Source: a virus. Taken from it: a stretch of DNA of 21,666 bases. The position numbers and the translations under genes are program-made. Below, one piece after another: positions 3,597 to 12,459 of this stretch. The notes below the pieces were generated by a model. The model saw only the letters and a program-made list of their open reading frames with translations, did not search any database and was not told where the DNA came from. Position 1 is the first letter of the stretch. Each line of letters opens with the position of its first letter. The stretch spans positions 1 to 21,666 of IMG/VR virus record IMGVR_UViG_3300025305_003741, one strand, 5' to 3'.

Positions 3597-3679
3597 AGGC
3601 TTAATATCCAAAGGGTCAAAATGAACCCAGCTATCCAAACACCAATAAATAATATTTTCTCTATTAAACGATTCTTCAT
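3584..3679 (-). CDS. 31-residue single-TM micro-protein
   Basis: ATG 3679 overlaps the stop codon of the preceding micro-gene (ATGA), so the two are translationally coupled. Residues 1-8 are basic (MKNRLIEK), and about 9-29 form one hydrophobic span (ILFIGVWIAGFILTLWILSL) ending PK. This composition is that of a short inner-membrane peptide, N-terminus probably inside. It lies between the methyltransferase gene and an exported-protein gene. It could be a small holin-like or regulatory membrane peptide; nothing in the sequence decides this. Confidence 0.55.
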   Translation of the reverse strand: MKNRLIEKILFIGVWIAGFILTLWILSLIPK

Positions 3680-3777
3680 TTCTTCTTCCTTAAAACATCT
3701 AGAAATAGCCAAAGGATGACTCCTCCAATTAGGCTCATCAATAGCAGCATTCCCATAGCTTTAATTATTATCAGCAT
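3676..3777 (-). CDS. 33-residue single-TM micro-protein
   Basis: ATG 3777 immediately follows the TAA (3780-3778) of the frame nested in the methyltransferase gene, and lies 17 nt inside the methyltransferase frame itself. The peptide is almost wholly hydrophobic (residues 1-26, including MGMLLLMSLIGGVILWLFL) with a basic C-terminal DVLRKKK, typical of one membrane span with the C-terminus inside. It overlaps the next micro-gene by ATGA. Its exact abutment to the nested frame is additional support that the nested frame is translated. Function unknown. Confidence 0.55.
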   Translation of the reverse strand: MLIIIKAMGMLLLMSLIGGVILWLFLDVLRKKK

Positions 3778-5089
3778 TTATGATTGCCCTTCCGATTTCT
3801 TCCGCGATTTGCGGGACGATAGCATTGCCCAATCCTTTAAGTCGGTGTACCCTGCCGAATACCCCATGAGCCACTCGACCCACATCGGGTTCAACGCTCC
3901 ACCACCCTTGATCCATTGTTCCTTGTTGTCCCTCGCTACTGTCTGTGGCAAAGAACTTCTGTGAGAGTTCACGACCGCTTTTCCTGAATCCTTCCAATCT
4001 CTCGCTGTGGGTGTCGGCCAGTTTCTCACTGCTAGTGTTAGAGGTGTTCCTCCCTGTTTGTATTTCTTGGTTCTCTCCGTTGCTGAATCCTGTGTTGGTG
4101 TCGGCCACATTAGATTCGGATGAGCTACTTGATCGTTGATGCTGATTGGCATTTTCTTTTCTAATTTCATCTTCATTCTTTTCTCGGAGCTCGGTCCTCT
4201 GTCGCAATGTGCGTCTGGAGTTCTCCACATCTTCATTTCTTCCAATCTCACTGCGTCGTCCAAGTTCAGACCAAATCTTTGTTTTCCATCCTTCGACAAT
4301 CTTCCCTGTGGAGTAATTCTCTCTGCTTTGTTGATGAATGTTTTTGCTCTCGGTGTCGGCCACATTCTTACTTCCCGATAGGTCTTGCCGTCTAAATTCA
4401 TTTCTTTGATTAGTTCGGGATTCTGTAATACTCCGAGTGTTGCTCTCTTCCCTAGACCTAGACTCCCATCTTTGTTGTTTCGGTTGATCTTTCTTAACGT
4501 TCCGTTCTTCGTCATTCTGAATCTGTCGTCTTTTCCAATTATCGCTCCCGCTCCTGCATCCGAGCTCACTGGAGTTGGTAGCAATGATCCAGACTCTTTC
4601 TCTCCGATGGGGAGCACCGACGCCTGCAGCTGGAATAATGAACGGTTGAACTTCGTATCCTTCACTTTCCAAGTCAGTGCACACAGCCTCGAAGACCACG
4701 CCGTCTTGGATGTTAATAATTCCTCTGACATTCTCGCCAATAACGAACCTCGGTTTGAATGCCTTGATAATGCGAAACATCTCTGGCCAGAGATGTCTGT
4801 CGTCACTCGTTCCTTTTTGTTTGCCTGCGACCGAGAACGGTTGGCACGGGAAACCTCCTGTGATGACATCGGGAGATGGAATTCCATCTGCCTCGAATCC
4901 TTCTTTCGTGATTTTTTTGACATCGTCATATATCTTAACTCCTTTCCAATGTTTTTGCAGCAACAGTTTGCAGTATTTGTCGATCTCGCAAAAGGCTACG
5001 GTTTCAAAATTTCCTGTTCGTTCTAGTCCTAAACTAAAACCTCCTATGCCACTAAAGAGATCTAGAATTTTTAATATGGGTTTTGTCAT
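3761..5089 (-). CDS. DNA (cytosine-5-)-methyltransferase
   Basis: This 442-residue enzyme transfers a methyl group from S-adenosylmethionine to cytosine C5 in DNA. Starting at ATG 5089, motif I is DLFSGIGGFS (10-19), motif IV GGFPCQPFS with catalytic Cys82, motif VI GENV (118-121), motif VIII HRRERVW (161-167), and the final motif GLGNAIVPQ (419-427). All key residues are present, so it is probably active. The target-recognition region between motifs VIII and X is long (about 230 residues), hydrophilic, and has repeated VADT/LADT segments. It overlaps the GcrA-like gene by 38 nt. A frame starting at 5188 exists, but motif I normally lies near the N-terminus. It may protect phage DNA or alter host gene control. 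A 383-codon frame is nested inside. Confidence 0.95.
   Translation of the reverse strand: MTKPILKILDLFSGIGGFSLGLERTGNFETVAFCEIDKYCKLLLQKHWKGVKIYDDVKKITKEGFEADGIPSPDVITGGFPCQPFSVAGKQKGTSDDRHLWPEMFRIIKAFKPRFVIGENVRGIINIQDGVVFEAVCTDLESEGYEVQPFIIPAAGVGAPHRRERVWIIATNSSELGCRSGSDNWKRRQIQNDEERNVKKDQPKQQRWESRSREESNTRSITESRTNQRNEFRRQDLSGSKNVADTESKNIHQQSRENYSTGKIVEGWKTKIWSELGRRSEIGRNEDVENSRRTLRQRTELREKNEDEIRKENANQHQRSSSSSESNVADTNTGFSNGENQEIQTGRNTSNTSSEKLADTHSERLEGFRKSGRELSQKFFATDSSEGQQGTMDQGWWSVEPDVGRVAHGVFGRVHRLKGLGNAIVPQIAEEIGRAIINADNN
3778..4929 (-). CDS. Nested overprinted gene inside the methyltransferase frame (repeated xPTP motifs)
   Basis: A 383-residue frame lying wholly inside the methyltransferase gene, same strand, shifted +1. 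AAAGGAG (4945-4939) stands 9 nt before ATG 4929, and the TAA abuts the next micro-gene's ATG. The protein is basic, with a CALTWKVKDTKFNRSLFQLQ segment (about 83-102), then five spaced motifs: LPTP (117), MWPTP (189), MWRTP (234), MWPTP (274) and NWPTPTARDWKDSG (303). It ends with LNPMWVEWLMGYSAGYTDL (346-364). From memory, proteins with this architecture occur in databases, usually called cytosine methyltransferase. No methyltransferase motif is in this frame. It may be a real overlapping gene or a conserved shadow of constrained DNA. Function unknown. Confidence 0.6.
   Translation of the reverse strand: MTMSKKSRKKDSRQMEFHLPMSSQEVSRANRSRSQANKKERVTTDISGQRCFALSRHSNRGSLLARMSEELLTSKTAWSSRLCALTWKVKDTKFNRSLFQLQASVLPIGEKESGSLLPTPVSSDAGAGAIIGKDDRFRMTKNGTLRKINRNNKDGSLGLGKRATLGVLQNPELIKEMNLDGKTYREVRMWPTPRAKTFINKAERITPQGRLSKDGKQRFGLNLDDAVRLEEMKMWRTPDAHCDRGPSSEKRMKMKLEKKMPISINDQVAHPNLMWPTPTQDSATERTKKYKQGGTPLTLAVRNWPTPTARDWKDSGKAVVNSHRSSLPQTVARDNKEQWIKGGGALNPMWVEWLMGYSAGYTDLKDWAMLSSRKSRKKSEGQS
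4939..4945 (-). promoter_or_regulatory. Ribosome-binding site of the nested frame
   Basis: AAAGGAG on the minus strand, inside the methyltransferase codons for Lys-Gly-Val after HW. It lies 9 nt before the ATG at 4929 of the nested frame. Few start sites in this window have so strong a match, and it has no purpose for the methyltransferase, whose start is about 150 nt upstream. Confidence 0.55.
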
Positions 5090-5423
5090 AATGCATTTTA
5101 CAATACGAGGATTTATTCCAATGTTCCCTTCCACAAAAAAGTTGTGGATCAGTGAGTTTGTCCCATAAGGGAAATTTGCATTGACCATTGGTTAAACTTT
5201 CTAGTGGAGTTGGGTTTTCTGGTTCAATCACTATAGGTAAAGACTCCCGTGGACGTTTAATTCCATGTGCTCCACCCCGTTTTCTTGGAGTGAAATTAAG
5301 CCGATTCGCTTTTCCAATAATTGCATTCTTGCTAACACCAAATACTTCAGCAATTTCGGTAGCTGCATCACCCTGTTCCCATAGTTCTTTTAGTTTTTCT
5401 ATTTTTTTATCAGTCCAGTTCAT
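5052..5423 (-). CDS. gcrA-like: GcrA family cell-cycle regulator
   Basis: A 123-residue protein with the GcrA layout. Residues 1-42 form the N-terminal DNA-binding helix-turn-helix (MNWTDKKIEKLKELWEQGDA, then IAEVFGVSKNAIIGKANRL). A basic linker with Pro follows, and a C-terminal segment LTNGQCKFPLWD carries Cys82, Cys97, Cys108 and His111, a likely metal-binding ribbon. In Alphaproteobacteria GcrA works with sigma70 polymerase at promoters carrying CcrM-methylated GANTC sites. It overlaps the nuclease gene upstream by ATGA and the cytosine methyltransferase downstream by 38 nt. A phage copy could redirect host cell-cycle transcription; that is inference. It is the best evidence for an alphaproteobacterial host. 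Confidence 0.92.
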   Translation of the reverse strand: MNWTDKKIEKLKELWEQGDAATEIAEVFGVSKNAIIGKANRLNFTPRKRGGAHGIKRPRESLPIVIEPENPTPLESLTNGQCKFPLWDKLTDPQLFCGREHWNKSSYCKMHYDKTHIKNSRSL

Positions 5424-10443: not shown

Positions 10444-10742
10444 TATTGAGTACTTAGTGGATTAGAAGTATTTATTTTAATTTCTTCTATTTGAAGTTTT
10501 AAGAGTTCAATTTCTGTAGCATTAACTGCTGAAGATTTACTATTATCAGCAATTTTTTGACCATTATCAGTAATTTTTTTATCCAACGGTGCTAAATTTA
10601 CTGTTTCTTGCTTAATATTAGATAGTGCTTCTAATTGAGTTGTAATTTCGCCATATTTAACAAAGCCCCCACCAATAGCTACAATAGCAGCTATCAATGC
10701 AGCTATACCCGCGAGTTGATCTTTTAATTTAAATTTACCCAT
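10443..10742 (-). CDS. Small membrane-anchored coiled-coil protein
   Basis: A 99-residue protein: short basic start MGKFKLKDQ, one TM span at about 10-29 (LAGIAALIAAIVAIGGGFV), then a polar coiled coil (about 31-90) with IELLKLQIEEIKIN. This topology, N-terminal TM with a coiled coil outside, resembles i-spanins and XhlA-like proteins but matches none decisively. It overlaps the large exported-protein gene by 8 nt and the Zn-ribbon gene by TAATG. A role in lysis or virion attachment is possible. Confidence 0.65.
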   Translation of the reverse strand: MGKFKLKDQLAGIAALIAAIVAIGGGFVKYGEITTQLEALSNIKQETVNLAPLDKKITDNGQKIADNSKSSAVNATEIELLKLQIEEIKINTSNPLSTQ

Positions 10743-12459
10743 TTTTTAATAATTCCAATTCTTTTAATAATCTCTGTTTTTTAAGATTAATTTTATGTAA
10801 GGCTTTTGCCTTAATTGCCACTTTATCATTTTTAATGTAGCTTGCAAGACTAACATTATCGTAAATTTGTCTATTATCAAAGATGTTTAATTGGTCTAAA
10901 TAAATATTTTTTGGCTTATAAAATATTGCATTTTTATATAAAGAAAGAGAAGCCTGTTCACTAGCCATAGCTTCTAATTTTATAAGATTTTTGATTTGTA
11001 GATTTTTAGCAATGTCCTTGATGTTAGCATCAACTTTATCCATTACTCTGTCAATATTTTTAACGAGAGCTTTTTCCGATTGTATCTTTTTTTGTTCGGA
11101 AGCACTTGCTGACGAAACCTTTGTAGGGCTTTCGCTATTGGATTCCTCTTCAGCAACTTTTTCTTGCGCTTCTTTTTTTTCGGCAACCGATTCTTCTTTT
11201 ATCTCTTCTTCTTTTTCTTCTTCGATTGCTTCTTCTTTTTCTTGTTTTTCTTTGATTTTTTCTTTTTCATTTGTGTTTTTTACCACTTTAGTGGTGGTAT
11301 TTGCAACTGTTTCTTTTTCCTCCATTATTGTTTCTTCTTCAATAATTTCTTCTTCCTGTGCAACCATTTCCTCTTCTTCAGAAACCATTGGTAAGAAAGT
11401 TTCGACGATCTCGTTTGTTTCCTCATAAAATTCCTCCACAGGTTCTTCCATTACTATTTCCTCTTCTACAAACTCTTCTTCAAAAGACATTTCTTCTTCC
11501 ATAAAAAATTCTTCAAAAAATTCTTCTGAGAATGAAAATTCCATAGTTGTTGTTTCCATTTCAAATACTGGTTCGTCAAAGGTCATCTCTTCATTAAATG
11601 AAAATTCTTCTTCTTCAAAATAGAACTCTTCCATATCTTCAAACACTTCTCCCTGTAAATCTTCTAGTGTTTCTTCTATGTCTTCTAATGCTGTTGATGT
11701 TTCTGTATCTAGGACGGTATTGTCATACGTCATGGTAAGTTTAGCACCTAAAAGATTCGGTCCACCCCTGCTTGCCGTACCCGTGTTATTATCAGTGCCA
11801 CTCCAGGACCAGTCTAATTTATTGGCTCCTGTATTATTAAATACTACTGTGTCATTGTATTGACCACATGCTGCAGATACACCTGCTAATGACGATGATG
11901 GATAACCATTACAATTTCCCTTGAATCCATCTATGTCTGTTCTTATTTGAGTTGTGGTAGATAAAACTGTTCCACTTGAATCTTTTACTTTAATGGTAAT
12001 TGTATGAGAGTCTGTAGCTCCACTATCACCTTCACAGTTTCCAGCTTCATGGTCACAGTTTGCGATATCAATATAATTATTAAGAGTAATCCCATTGTCC
12101 AACATATCCTGAGTACGAGTATTATTAGTTAAATTGATATCATCGGCGGATAATGTTGCCGTGCCTGTAACTTCAAAATCTCCACCCACACTCCATTTAT
12201 AGCCACAATTAGCTTGAGAAGTGGCACATGTAACTGTAAATCCATTTACAACAGTACCATTGGATACATAACCAGAACTACCAGGATTAATTTGGTCTGT
12301 AGAACTAGAATTCCAATCTACTCCATCTCCAGCATTGGGTAAAAGATTTCCTGTAGTTATATCTTCGGCTTTAACAGTATTAGAAAAACAACTTGCTACA
12401 GCATAGCAACAGAAAAATAGTATTGCGATCGCTTTAATTTTTATTTTGGTTGTGTCCAT
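10735..12459 (-). CDS. Large exported protein with Glu/Met/Phe-rich repeat region
   Basis: A 574-residue protein. Residues 1-32 are a signal sequence; a lipobox-like VASC (Cys24) makes a lipoprotein possible, and VKA-ED at 31-32 a normal cleavage site. Residues 33-250 are Ser/Thr/Asn/Gly-rich with several Cys, typical of a beta-rich extracellular or virion domain (ITTGNLLPNAGDGVDWNSSS). Residues about 255-440 are extremely acidic and built of Glu with Met and Phe (FSFNEE, FSFSEE, MSFEEE variants). Residues 440-574 form a helical coiled-coil tail. I do not recognise it; a surface or tail-adhesion protein is an inference from export and composition. Confidence 0.75.
   Translation of the reverse strand: MDTTKIKIKAIAILFFCCYAVASCFSNTVKAEDITTGNLLPNAGDGVDWNSSSTDQINPGSSGYVSNGTVVNGFTVTCATSQANCGYKWSVGGDFEVTGTATLSADDINLTNNTRTQDMLDNGITLNNYIDIANCDHEAGNCEGDSGATDSHTITIKVKDSSGTVLSTTTQIRTDIDGFKGNCNGYPSSSLAGVSAACGQYNDTVVFNNTGANKLDWSWSGTDNNTGTASRGGPNLLGAKLTMTYDNTVLDTETSTALEDIEETLEDLQGEVFEDMEEFYFEEEEFSFNEEMTFDEPVFEMETTTMEFSFSEEFFEEFFMEEEMSFEEEFVEEEIVMEEPVEEFYEETNEIVETFLPMVSEEEEMVAQEEEIIEEETIMEEKETVANTTTKVVKNTNEKEKIKEKQEKEEAIEEEKEEEIKEESVAEKKEAQEKVAEEESNSESPTKVSSASASEQKKIQSEKALVKNIDRVMDKVDANIKDIAKNLQIKNLIKLEAMASEQASLSLYKNAIFYKPKNIYLDQLNIFDNRQIYDNVSLASYIKNDKVAIKAKALHKINLKKQRLLKELELLKNG

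Follow-up and report, generated by a model that had tools for sequence, protein, structure and literature searches.

A gene nested in the +1 frame of a phage C5-methyltransferase gene as a proposed subunit for target recognition and motif IX

We analyzed a viral stretch of 21,666 nucleotides (IMGVR_UViG_3300025305_003741, positions 1-21,666; hereafter the window) that carries a cytosine C5-methyltransferase (C5-MTase) frame, here called alpha, and a nested +1 frame, here called beta. The alpha ORF lies at 3761-5188 on the minus strand, as do all features described below for the window. It encodes 475 aa from its first ATG and matches PF00145 (E 1.3e-54); its true start is probably Met34, near position 5089. 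The catalytic domain (aa 38-203, positions 4580-5077) contains the C5-MTase motifs I, IV (PCQ), VI (ENV), and VIII, placed by the alpha alignment and by alignment to M.HhaI. It is followed by a linker rich in R, E, S, and N (3908-4579), which is fast-evolving at alpha codon position 1 and, in the alpha alignment, of low complexity and highly variable length. No target-recognition domain (TRD) or motif IX was seen in this linker, based on the alpha alignment and on codon-position and four-fold-site analyses. The motif X region (RVHRLKGLGNAIVPQIAEEIGRAI; 3782-3853) was recognized from near-invariant alignment columns and the motif X profile. Directly upstream of alpha is a gene for a GcrA-like protein (5052-5423; PF07750, E 8e-23), the end of which overlaps the probable alpha start. 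GcrA of Caulobacter responds to DNA methylation, which makes this neighbor suggestive. Elsewhere in the window, a 574-aa ORF (10735-12459) among replication genes (DNA polymerase, helicase, and primase) had no match in PHROGs.

Beta is a 383-codon frame at 3778-4929, wholly within the alpha ORF, on the same strand, and shifted by +1, as originally predicted. Support for the gene comes from the selection tests described below and from a match to phrog_1008 (E 1.8e-22). Its ATG at 4929 follows the Shine-Dalgarno sequence AAAGGAG (4939-4945) at the predicted spacing of exactly 9 nt, and this site is kept in relatives. The N-terminal region (aa 1-115; 4585-4929) lies opposite alpha motifs IV-VIII and was delimited using the beta alignment and the synonymous constraint on alpha. 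It includes a conserved LTWKxKxTxxxRLLFQL hairpin, with strands at 83-91 and 97-105 in the AlphaFold2 model. Five cassettes follow, identified by cassette clustering: cassette 1 (LPTPVSSDAGAG...; 4363-4581), cassette 2 (WPTPRAKTFINK...; 4228-4362), cassette 3 (WRTPDAHCDRGPSSEKRMKMKLEKKMPISINDQVAHPNLM; 4108-4227), cassette 4 (WPTPTQDSATERTKKYKQGGTPLTLAVRN; 4021-4107), and cassette 5 (WPTPTARDWKDSGKAVVNSHRSSLPQTVARDNKEQW; 3913-4020). Cassette 3 is of the most widely shared type in our sample, with 84 copies at varying array positions. The five xPTP/RTP motifs already remarked on in this frame are LPTP at aa 117, WPTP at 190, WRTP at 235, WPTP at 275, and WPTP at 304. At the C-terminal end is a segment assigned to motif IX (LNPMWVEWLMGYSAGYTDL; 3838-3894), which overlaps the pre-X segment of alpha. 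We propose that beta is a subunit that would provide target recognition together with motif IX. The beta TAA (3780-3778) adjoins, as had been noted, the ATG (3777) of a 33-codon micro-ORF with a single transmembrane segment (3676-3777; MLIIIKAMGMLLLMSLIGGVILWLFLDVLRKKK), which overlaps the end of alpha and is possibly translationally coupled to beta.

The C-terminal signature LNPMWVEWLMG (aa 346-356; consensus LNPxWVEWLMGxP) is present as originally predicted, but the accompanying statement that the methyltransferase does not need it did not hold, as the signature corresponds to C5-MTase motif IX and is absent from the methyltransferase frame. In a phmmer comparison with M.HhaI, only aa 39-204 of alpha were covered, spanning motifs I-VIII. 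At a related locus with both motif IX and motif X in alpha's frame (L224), PF00145 covers profile positions 2-323 of 324. Compared with solved structures, the L224 segment rLnPdwvewlMGfPsSw...lGNaVV aligns with residues 270-317 of M.HhaI, kLhPrecarvMGyPdSy...fGNsVV, which we take to be the HhaI motif IX-X segment. We assign the homologous beta signature to motif IX because of this alignment and because the window's alpha matches M.HhaI over motifs I-VIII only, with motif X at its end. Taken by itself, this alignment of motif IX is weak (conditional E 0.0011), and the assignment draws on position and on the single-frame relatives. The succession of motif IX and then motif X is thus provided by alpha and beta jointly (X in alpha, IX in beta), not by alpha alone. 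By these alignments, alpha is without motif IX and beta carries it.

Related loci came from viral contigs searched with the nested protein (80 loci), from a search with the alpha alignment (a further 80, the best 80 of the matches listed, picked by similarity to alpha and not by the nested frame), and from bacterial genomes scanned with the nested profile (another 80). The alpha-chosen loci lean to near relatives of the window's alpha, because they are the best of the matches listed. A check suggested with the original prediction was to look for stop codons in the nested frame of homologues; among these best 80 of the matches listed, the frame ran without a stop, beginning well ahead of the end of motif VIII and continuing past the C-terminal signature's last residue, at all 77 loci that could be classified. 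Over all sets together, motifs I-VIII and X share one frame and the signature lies in the +1 frame at 247 of 265 classified loci. Among nested loci, the shift is always +1; motifs IX and X are successive in different frames at 24 of them, and motif IX overlaps the pre-X segment at 223.

Other arrangements were also found. At eight loci (L226, L186, L270, L272, L273, L276, L277, and L280), alpha stops right after motif VIII, and an overlapping second ORF contains the cassettes, motif IX, and motif X. Three loci (L204, L224, and L247) hold motifs I-VIII, IX, and X in a single frame, with PTP cassettes in a +1 ORF, so the division of labor between the frames is not universal; two of these come from Rickettsiales and one from an alphaproteobacterial metagenome-assembled genome. 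Motif IX is also in alpha's frame at L207 and L225. This continuum of IX and X arrangements suggests that nesting could derive from a split gene. On a Bacteroides finegoldii plasmid (L256, 2477-3649), a 190-aa alpha, a 353-aa beta, and motif X form three separate ORFs, which could be an organization in three pieces or the result of decay. The frame arrangements of L129, L220, L235, and L237 were left out as evidence, as they may reflect assembly errors or decay.

The layout occurs in many kinds of phage. We read it directly in coliphage Bas70 (BASEL collection), Rhodobacter phage RcWhiteOak, Lactobacillus phage Lc-Nu, Bacteroides phage BS-TP4, and a Klebsiella prophage-like plasmid; Paenibacillus larvae phages Lily, Bloom, and Diva have it too, and marine phages are among the carriers. 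Among 300 genomes sampled from one bacterial host's class, the nested protein was encoded in 17, the seed genome included. Wherever flanking sequence sufficed, beta was found beside or inside such an alpha. The suspicion that the nested frame is widespread and misnamed under a methyltransferase label was borne out by PHROGs family phrog_1008, "DNA methyltransferase," which beta matches with E values down to 8e-53 (coliphage Bas70). It is the nested-frame product that matches, it shows no catalytic motif, and the label is inherited. Annotators of the P. larvae phages recorded the nested frame either as an "internal gene" with no function given or as an additional methyltransferase. In E. coli Ec1117 (L260, 1189-2358), RefSeq gives two incomplete pseudogene pieces named "DNA cytosine methyltransferase," yet alpha is an open frame of 404 codons, accompanied by a nested frame of 343 aa. 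This pseudogene call is an annotation artifact that may be common.

We then asked which frame is under selection, and where, using 80 disjoint, codon-aligned locus pairs, with equal scoring of both frames and a tally of differences at each codon position. Before the nested start (motif I) and after the signature (motif X), the third position of alpha is the fastest, as in an ordinary gene. From motif VIII to the signature, alpha position 1 (beta position 3) is the fastest and alpha position 3 (beta position 2) the slowest, in 60 of the 64 decided pairs. Four-fold divergence of alpha is 0.362 outside the overlap; it drops to 0.229, 0.171, and 0.161 across motifs IV-VIII, to 0.071 in the cassettes, and to 0.038 at motif IX, and is back at 0.312 at motif X. 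The expected synonymous-site constraint on the methyltransferase within the overlap is therefore strong. In the cassette region of viral pairs, amino acid divergence is 0.26 for alpha versus 0.13 for beta. The selected frame switches along the gene, and in the cassettes it is beta that is conserved instead of alpha; by these measures, beta is the main product of the DNA there. The original description of beta as overprinted on the methyltransferase was right that the nested gene is real, but in the cassettes the direction is reversed, because beta is the selected frame there and alpha merely a stop-free passenger. Beta is under protein-level selection and is therefore almost certainly translated.

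The length of the open frame is also beyond chance, as had been claimed for the 383 stop-free codons. The longest +1 open run in the window is 405 codons, and permuting the synonymous codons of alpha, with protein and codon usage kept, did not restore it in any of 20,000 trials. At nine other loci, the corresponding counts were 0 of 3,000 at eight and 60 of 3,000 at L006. In the opposite direction, the arrays (motif VIII to signature) of 216 loci contain no alpha-frame stops, versus 943.6 expected from synonymous permutation of beta. Motif X is encoded past the array, so alpha must stay open across it. At four loci that serve as natural controls (L013, L023, L105, and L132), beta runs 391-694 nt past the alpha stop, and 13-34 alpha-frame stops are found in these extensions. 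A conserved start site, another suggested check, was recovered as well: a Shine-Dalgarno-like site with a start codon was present at 55 of 78 loci versus 20.7 expected, leaving about 30% with no obvious site by the simple pattern used.

To describe the arrays, we defined cassettes as units starting with [W/L/F/I]xTP between motif VIII and motif IX of beta, which gave 609 units at 212 loci. Each beta has 1-7 or 9 cassettes with a median length of 40 residues, and greedy clustering at 60% identity yields about 240 types; single-linkage clustering merged most units and was dropped. Identical cassette types recur at differing positions and copy numbers, and at 84 loci a cassette of the window exceeds the catalytic domain in similarity by more than 10 points. 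The tandem [W/L][P/R]TP cassettes are most likely TRDs, by analogy with the multispecific Bacillus phage methyltransferases (PMC8936443), which they match in position, size, tandem repetition, and exchange. Some betas have a helix-turn-helix-like extension, which matches in frame the mid-region of the N6/N4-methyltransferase of Staphylococcus phage Alsa_2 (35% identity, E 6e-9). This domain (...TTVEHWFR...SYPSIEDWN...) lies at approximately 960-1362 in L023, 4099-4489 in L105, and 3979-4396 in L132; it is cassette type 19 in L024, L029, and L049, and the Alsa_2 copy is at L261 1501-1725. It points to the exchange of a recognition-type domain between methyltransferases of unrelated classes.

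Family and structure searches returned little for beta. Pfam, NCBIfam, and PDB sequence searches gave nothing credible, and a profile-profile comparison found no relation between beta and alpha, ruling out a recognizable alpha duplicate. AlphaFold2 models of beta alone had pLDDT values of 60.4 (window beta) and 57.0 (a compact two-cassette beta), and because this confidence is too low we make no claims about the fold. The models matched no solved fold; the sole weak structural match, cyanase (Z 2.3), was disregarded, as the model is too uncertain. Low confidence would be expected if beta folds only on alpha and is compatible with this idea, although it lends no positive support.

Taken together, these results make it very probable that alpha and beta are the two polypeptides of a phage C5-MTase, alpha being catalytic (motifs I-VIII and X) and beta contributing the cassettes and motif IX. 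Alpha would be the catalytic large-domain half, with SAM-binding motif I, PCQ in motif IV, ENV in motif VI, motif VIII, a disordered linker, and motif X. Beta would be initiated separately on the same mRNA, inside alpha and in the +1 frame, at its own Shine-Dalgarno site, and would form the small-domain half, with cassettes of about 40 residues in tandem, each probably a TRD, and then motif IX. The two chains would assemble into a single methyltransferase. Each cassette would recognize one sequence, and swapping cassettes would alter methylation specificity, allowing the phage to escape host restriction. The idea that the nested product is a partner of the enzyme thus gains support from the sequences, with the amendment that beta looks like the enzyme's own recognition half rather than an unrelated product.

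The TRD could instead reside in the alpha linker, with beta supplying motif IX only, as stated for M.EcoHK31I. The portion of PMC3404938 that deals with M.EcoHK31I puts a predicted TRD in the larger subunit, and alpha is kept open across the cassette region. However, selection in this region acts on beta, with a divergence of 0.07 at alpha four-fold sites and, in viral pairs, the 0.26 versus 0.13 amino acid divergence given above, and the linker is of low complexity and very variable in length, making this alternative unlikely. It is quite unlikely, too, that a programmed +1 frameshift after motif VIII produces a fusion of motifs I-VIII, cassettes, and motif IX, while full-length alpha gives motif X. 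Such a frameshift would fit the order of the parts on the DNA, the constant +1 relation of nested loci, and the presence of motif IX in alpha's frame at L207 and L225, but it would require neither the conserved Shine-Dalgarno site and start about 350 nt upstream of the cassettes nor the constraint on beta already evident opposite motifs IV-VIII.

An independent protein with another job (e.g., a nuclease, toxin, or anti-defense factor) that merely shares the locus would explain why beta has no match in Pfam, NCBIfam, or PDB; we consider this very improbable, as beta carries motif IX, joined at eight loci by motif X in the same ORF, nested alphas are without motif IX in their own frame, and beta adjoins or sits inside such an alpha wherever flanks sufficed. 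Finally, part of beta lies opposite the strongly conserved motifs IV-VIII, enough to conserve some +1 translation, but a nested frame that is only a by-product of the conserved methyltransferase protein and its codon usage, with no protein made, is ruled out by the position-specific tests and the switch in selected frame, by the failure of all 20,000 permutations to restore the open run, by the conservation of beta where alpha drifts in the cassettes, and by the betas that extend 391-694 nt beyond the alpha stop with more cassettes or an extra domain, and it retains almost no probability.

With alpha and beta read as two parts of one methyltransferase, we lean somewhat toward a broader view, in which the locus represents a widespread class of phage C5-MTases with a specificity subunit built as a shuffled cassette array inside the catalytic gene. 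Each cassette would be selected both as a recognition unit and as a stop-free linker, and specificities would be exchangeable while the subunits are genetically inseparable. If so, many phage "DNA cytosine methyltransferases," as annotated, are half an enzyme, and clones, models, and predictions made from the main frame only omit the recognition domain. The cassettes would then be a natural library of recognition units that could be linked to methylation motifs. The nested pair is also long and well supported, the selected frame clearly switches along it, and the arrangement spans many phages and has been mostly overlooked by annotation. BASEL coliphage Bas70 (gene Bas70_0036) is a tractable phage for tests. 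We found no report of this overlap in the literature searched, where M.EcoHK31I appears only in brief mentions; the precedent is the two-polypeptide M.EcoHK31I, and the apparent novelty lies in having a cassette array in the nested frame, in the shuffling of that array, and in how widely it occurs.

M.EcoHK31I and M.EaeI are both two-polypeptide C5-MTases, and beta of M.EcoHK31I is encoded inside alpha in another frame. In the window, too, the gene for the small subunit lies within that for the large subunit and is read in another frame. In the M.EcoHK31I account within PMC3404938, the large polypeptide has motifs I-VIII and X along with the predicted TRD, and the small polypeptide has motif IX. 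Alpha and beta of the window are divided in the same way, with motifs I-VIII and X but not IX in alpha and motif IX in beta, based on the profile frames and the HhaI motif IX alignment through L224. In contrast to M.EcoHK31I, beta of the window adds a tandem array of shuffled cassettes, its counterpart in alpha is an apparently empty linker, and the enzymes described here are mostly orphan phage enzymes. M.AquI alpha/beta is naturally split near the end of motif VIII, and the eight relatives with cassettes, motif IX, and motif X in one ORF resemble its small subunit. The window differs from M.AquI, as its small subunit carries motif IX without motif X, which is found in alpha, and the whole of beta is nested in the alpha ORF.

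M.BatI, an orphan C5-MTase of a Bacillus prophage, was reported to be active as a clone, with a gene 20-30% smaller and a recognition region judged to be smaller than a single TRD (PMC8936443). Its motif I is CxGxxG (PMC8936443), a form shared by the alphas of L005 and L270. The missing part of M.BatI may be nested in its gene, making this enzyme a previously published candidate. Abolishing methylation by C86G does not remove the toxicity of the batIM clone in E. coli (PMC8936443); a nested beta product could be involved in this toxicity, if batIM contains one. The multispecific C5-MTases of Bacillus phages SPR, phi3T, rho11, and H2 have tandem recognition domains between motifs VIII and IX (PMC8936443). 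The window also has several TRD-sized units between motifs VIII and IX, namely its five cassettes, but in the +1 frame. Whereas the Bacillus phage enzymes are single polypeptides, the array and the catalytic motifs of the window are in different frames and thus in different polypeptides.
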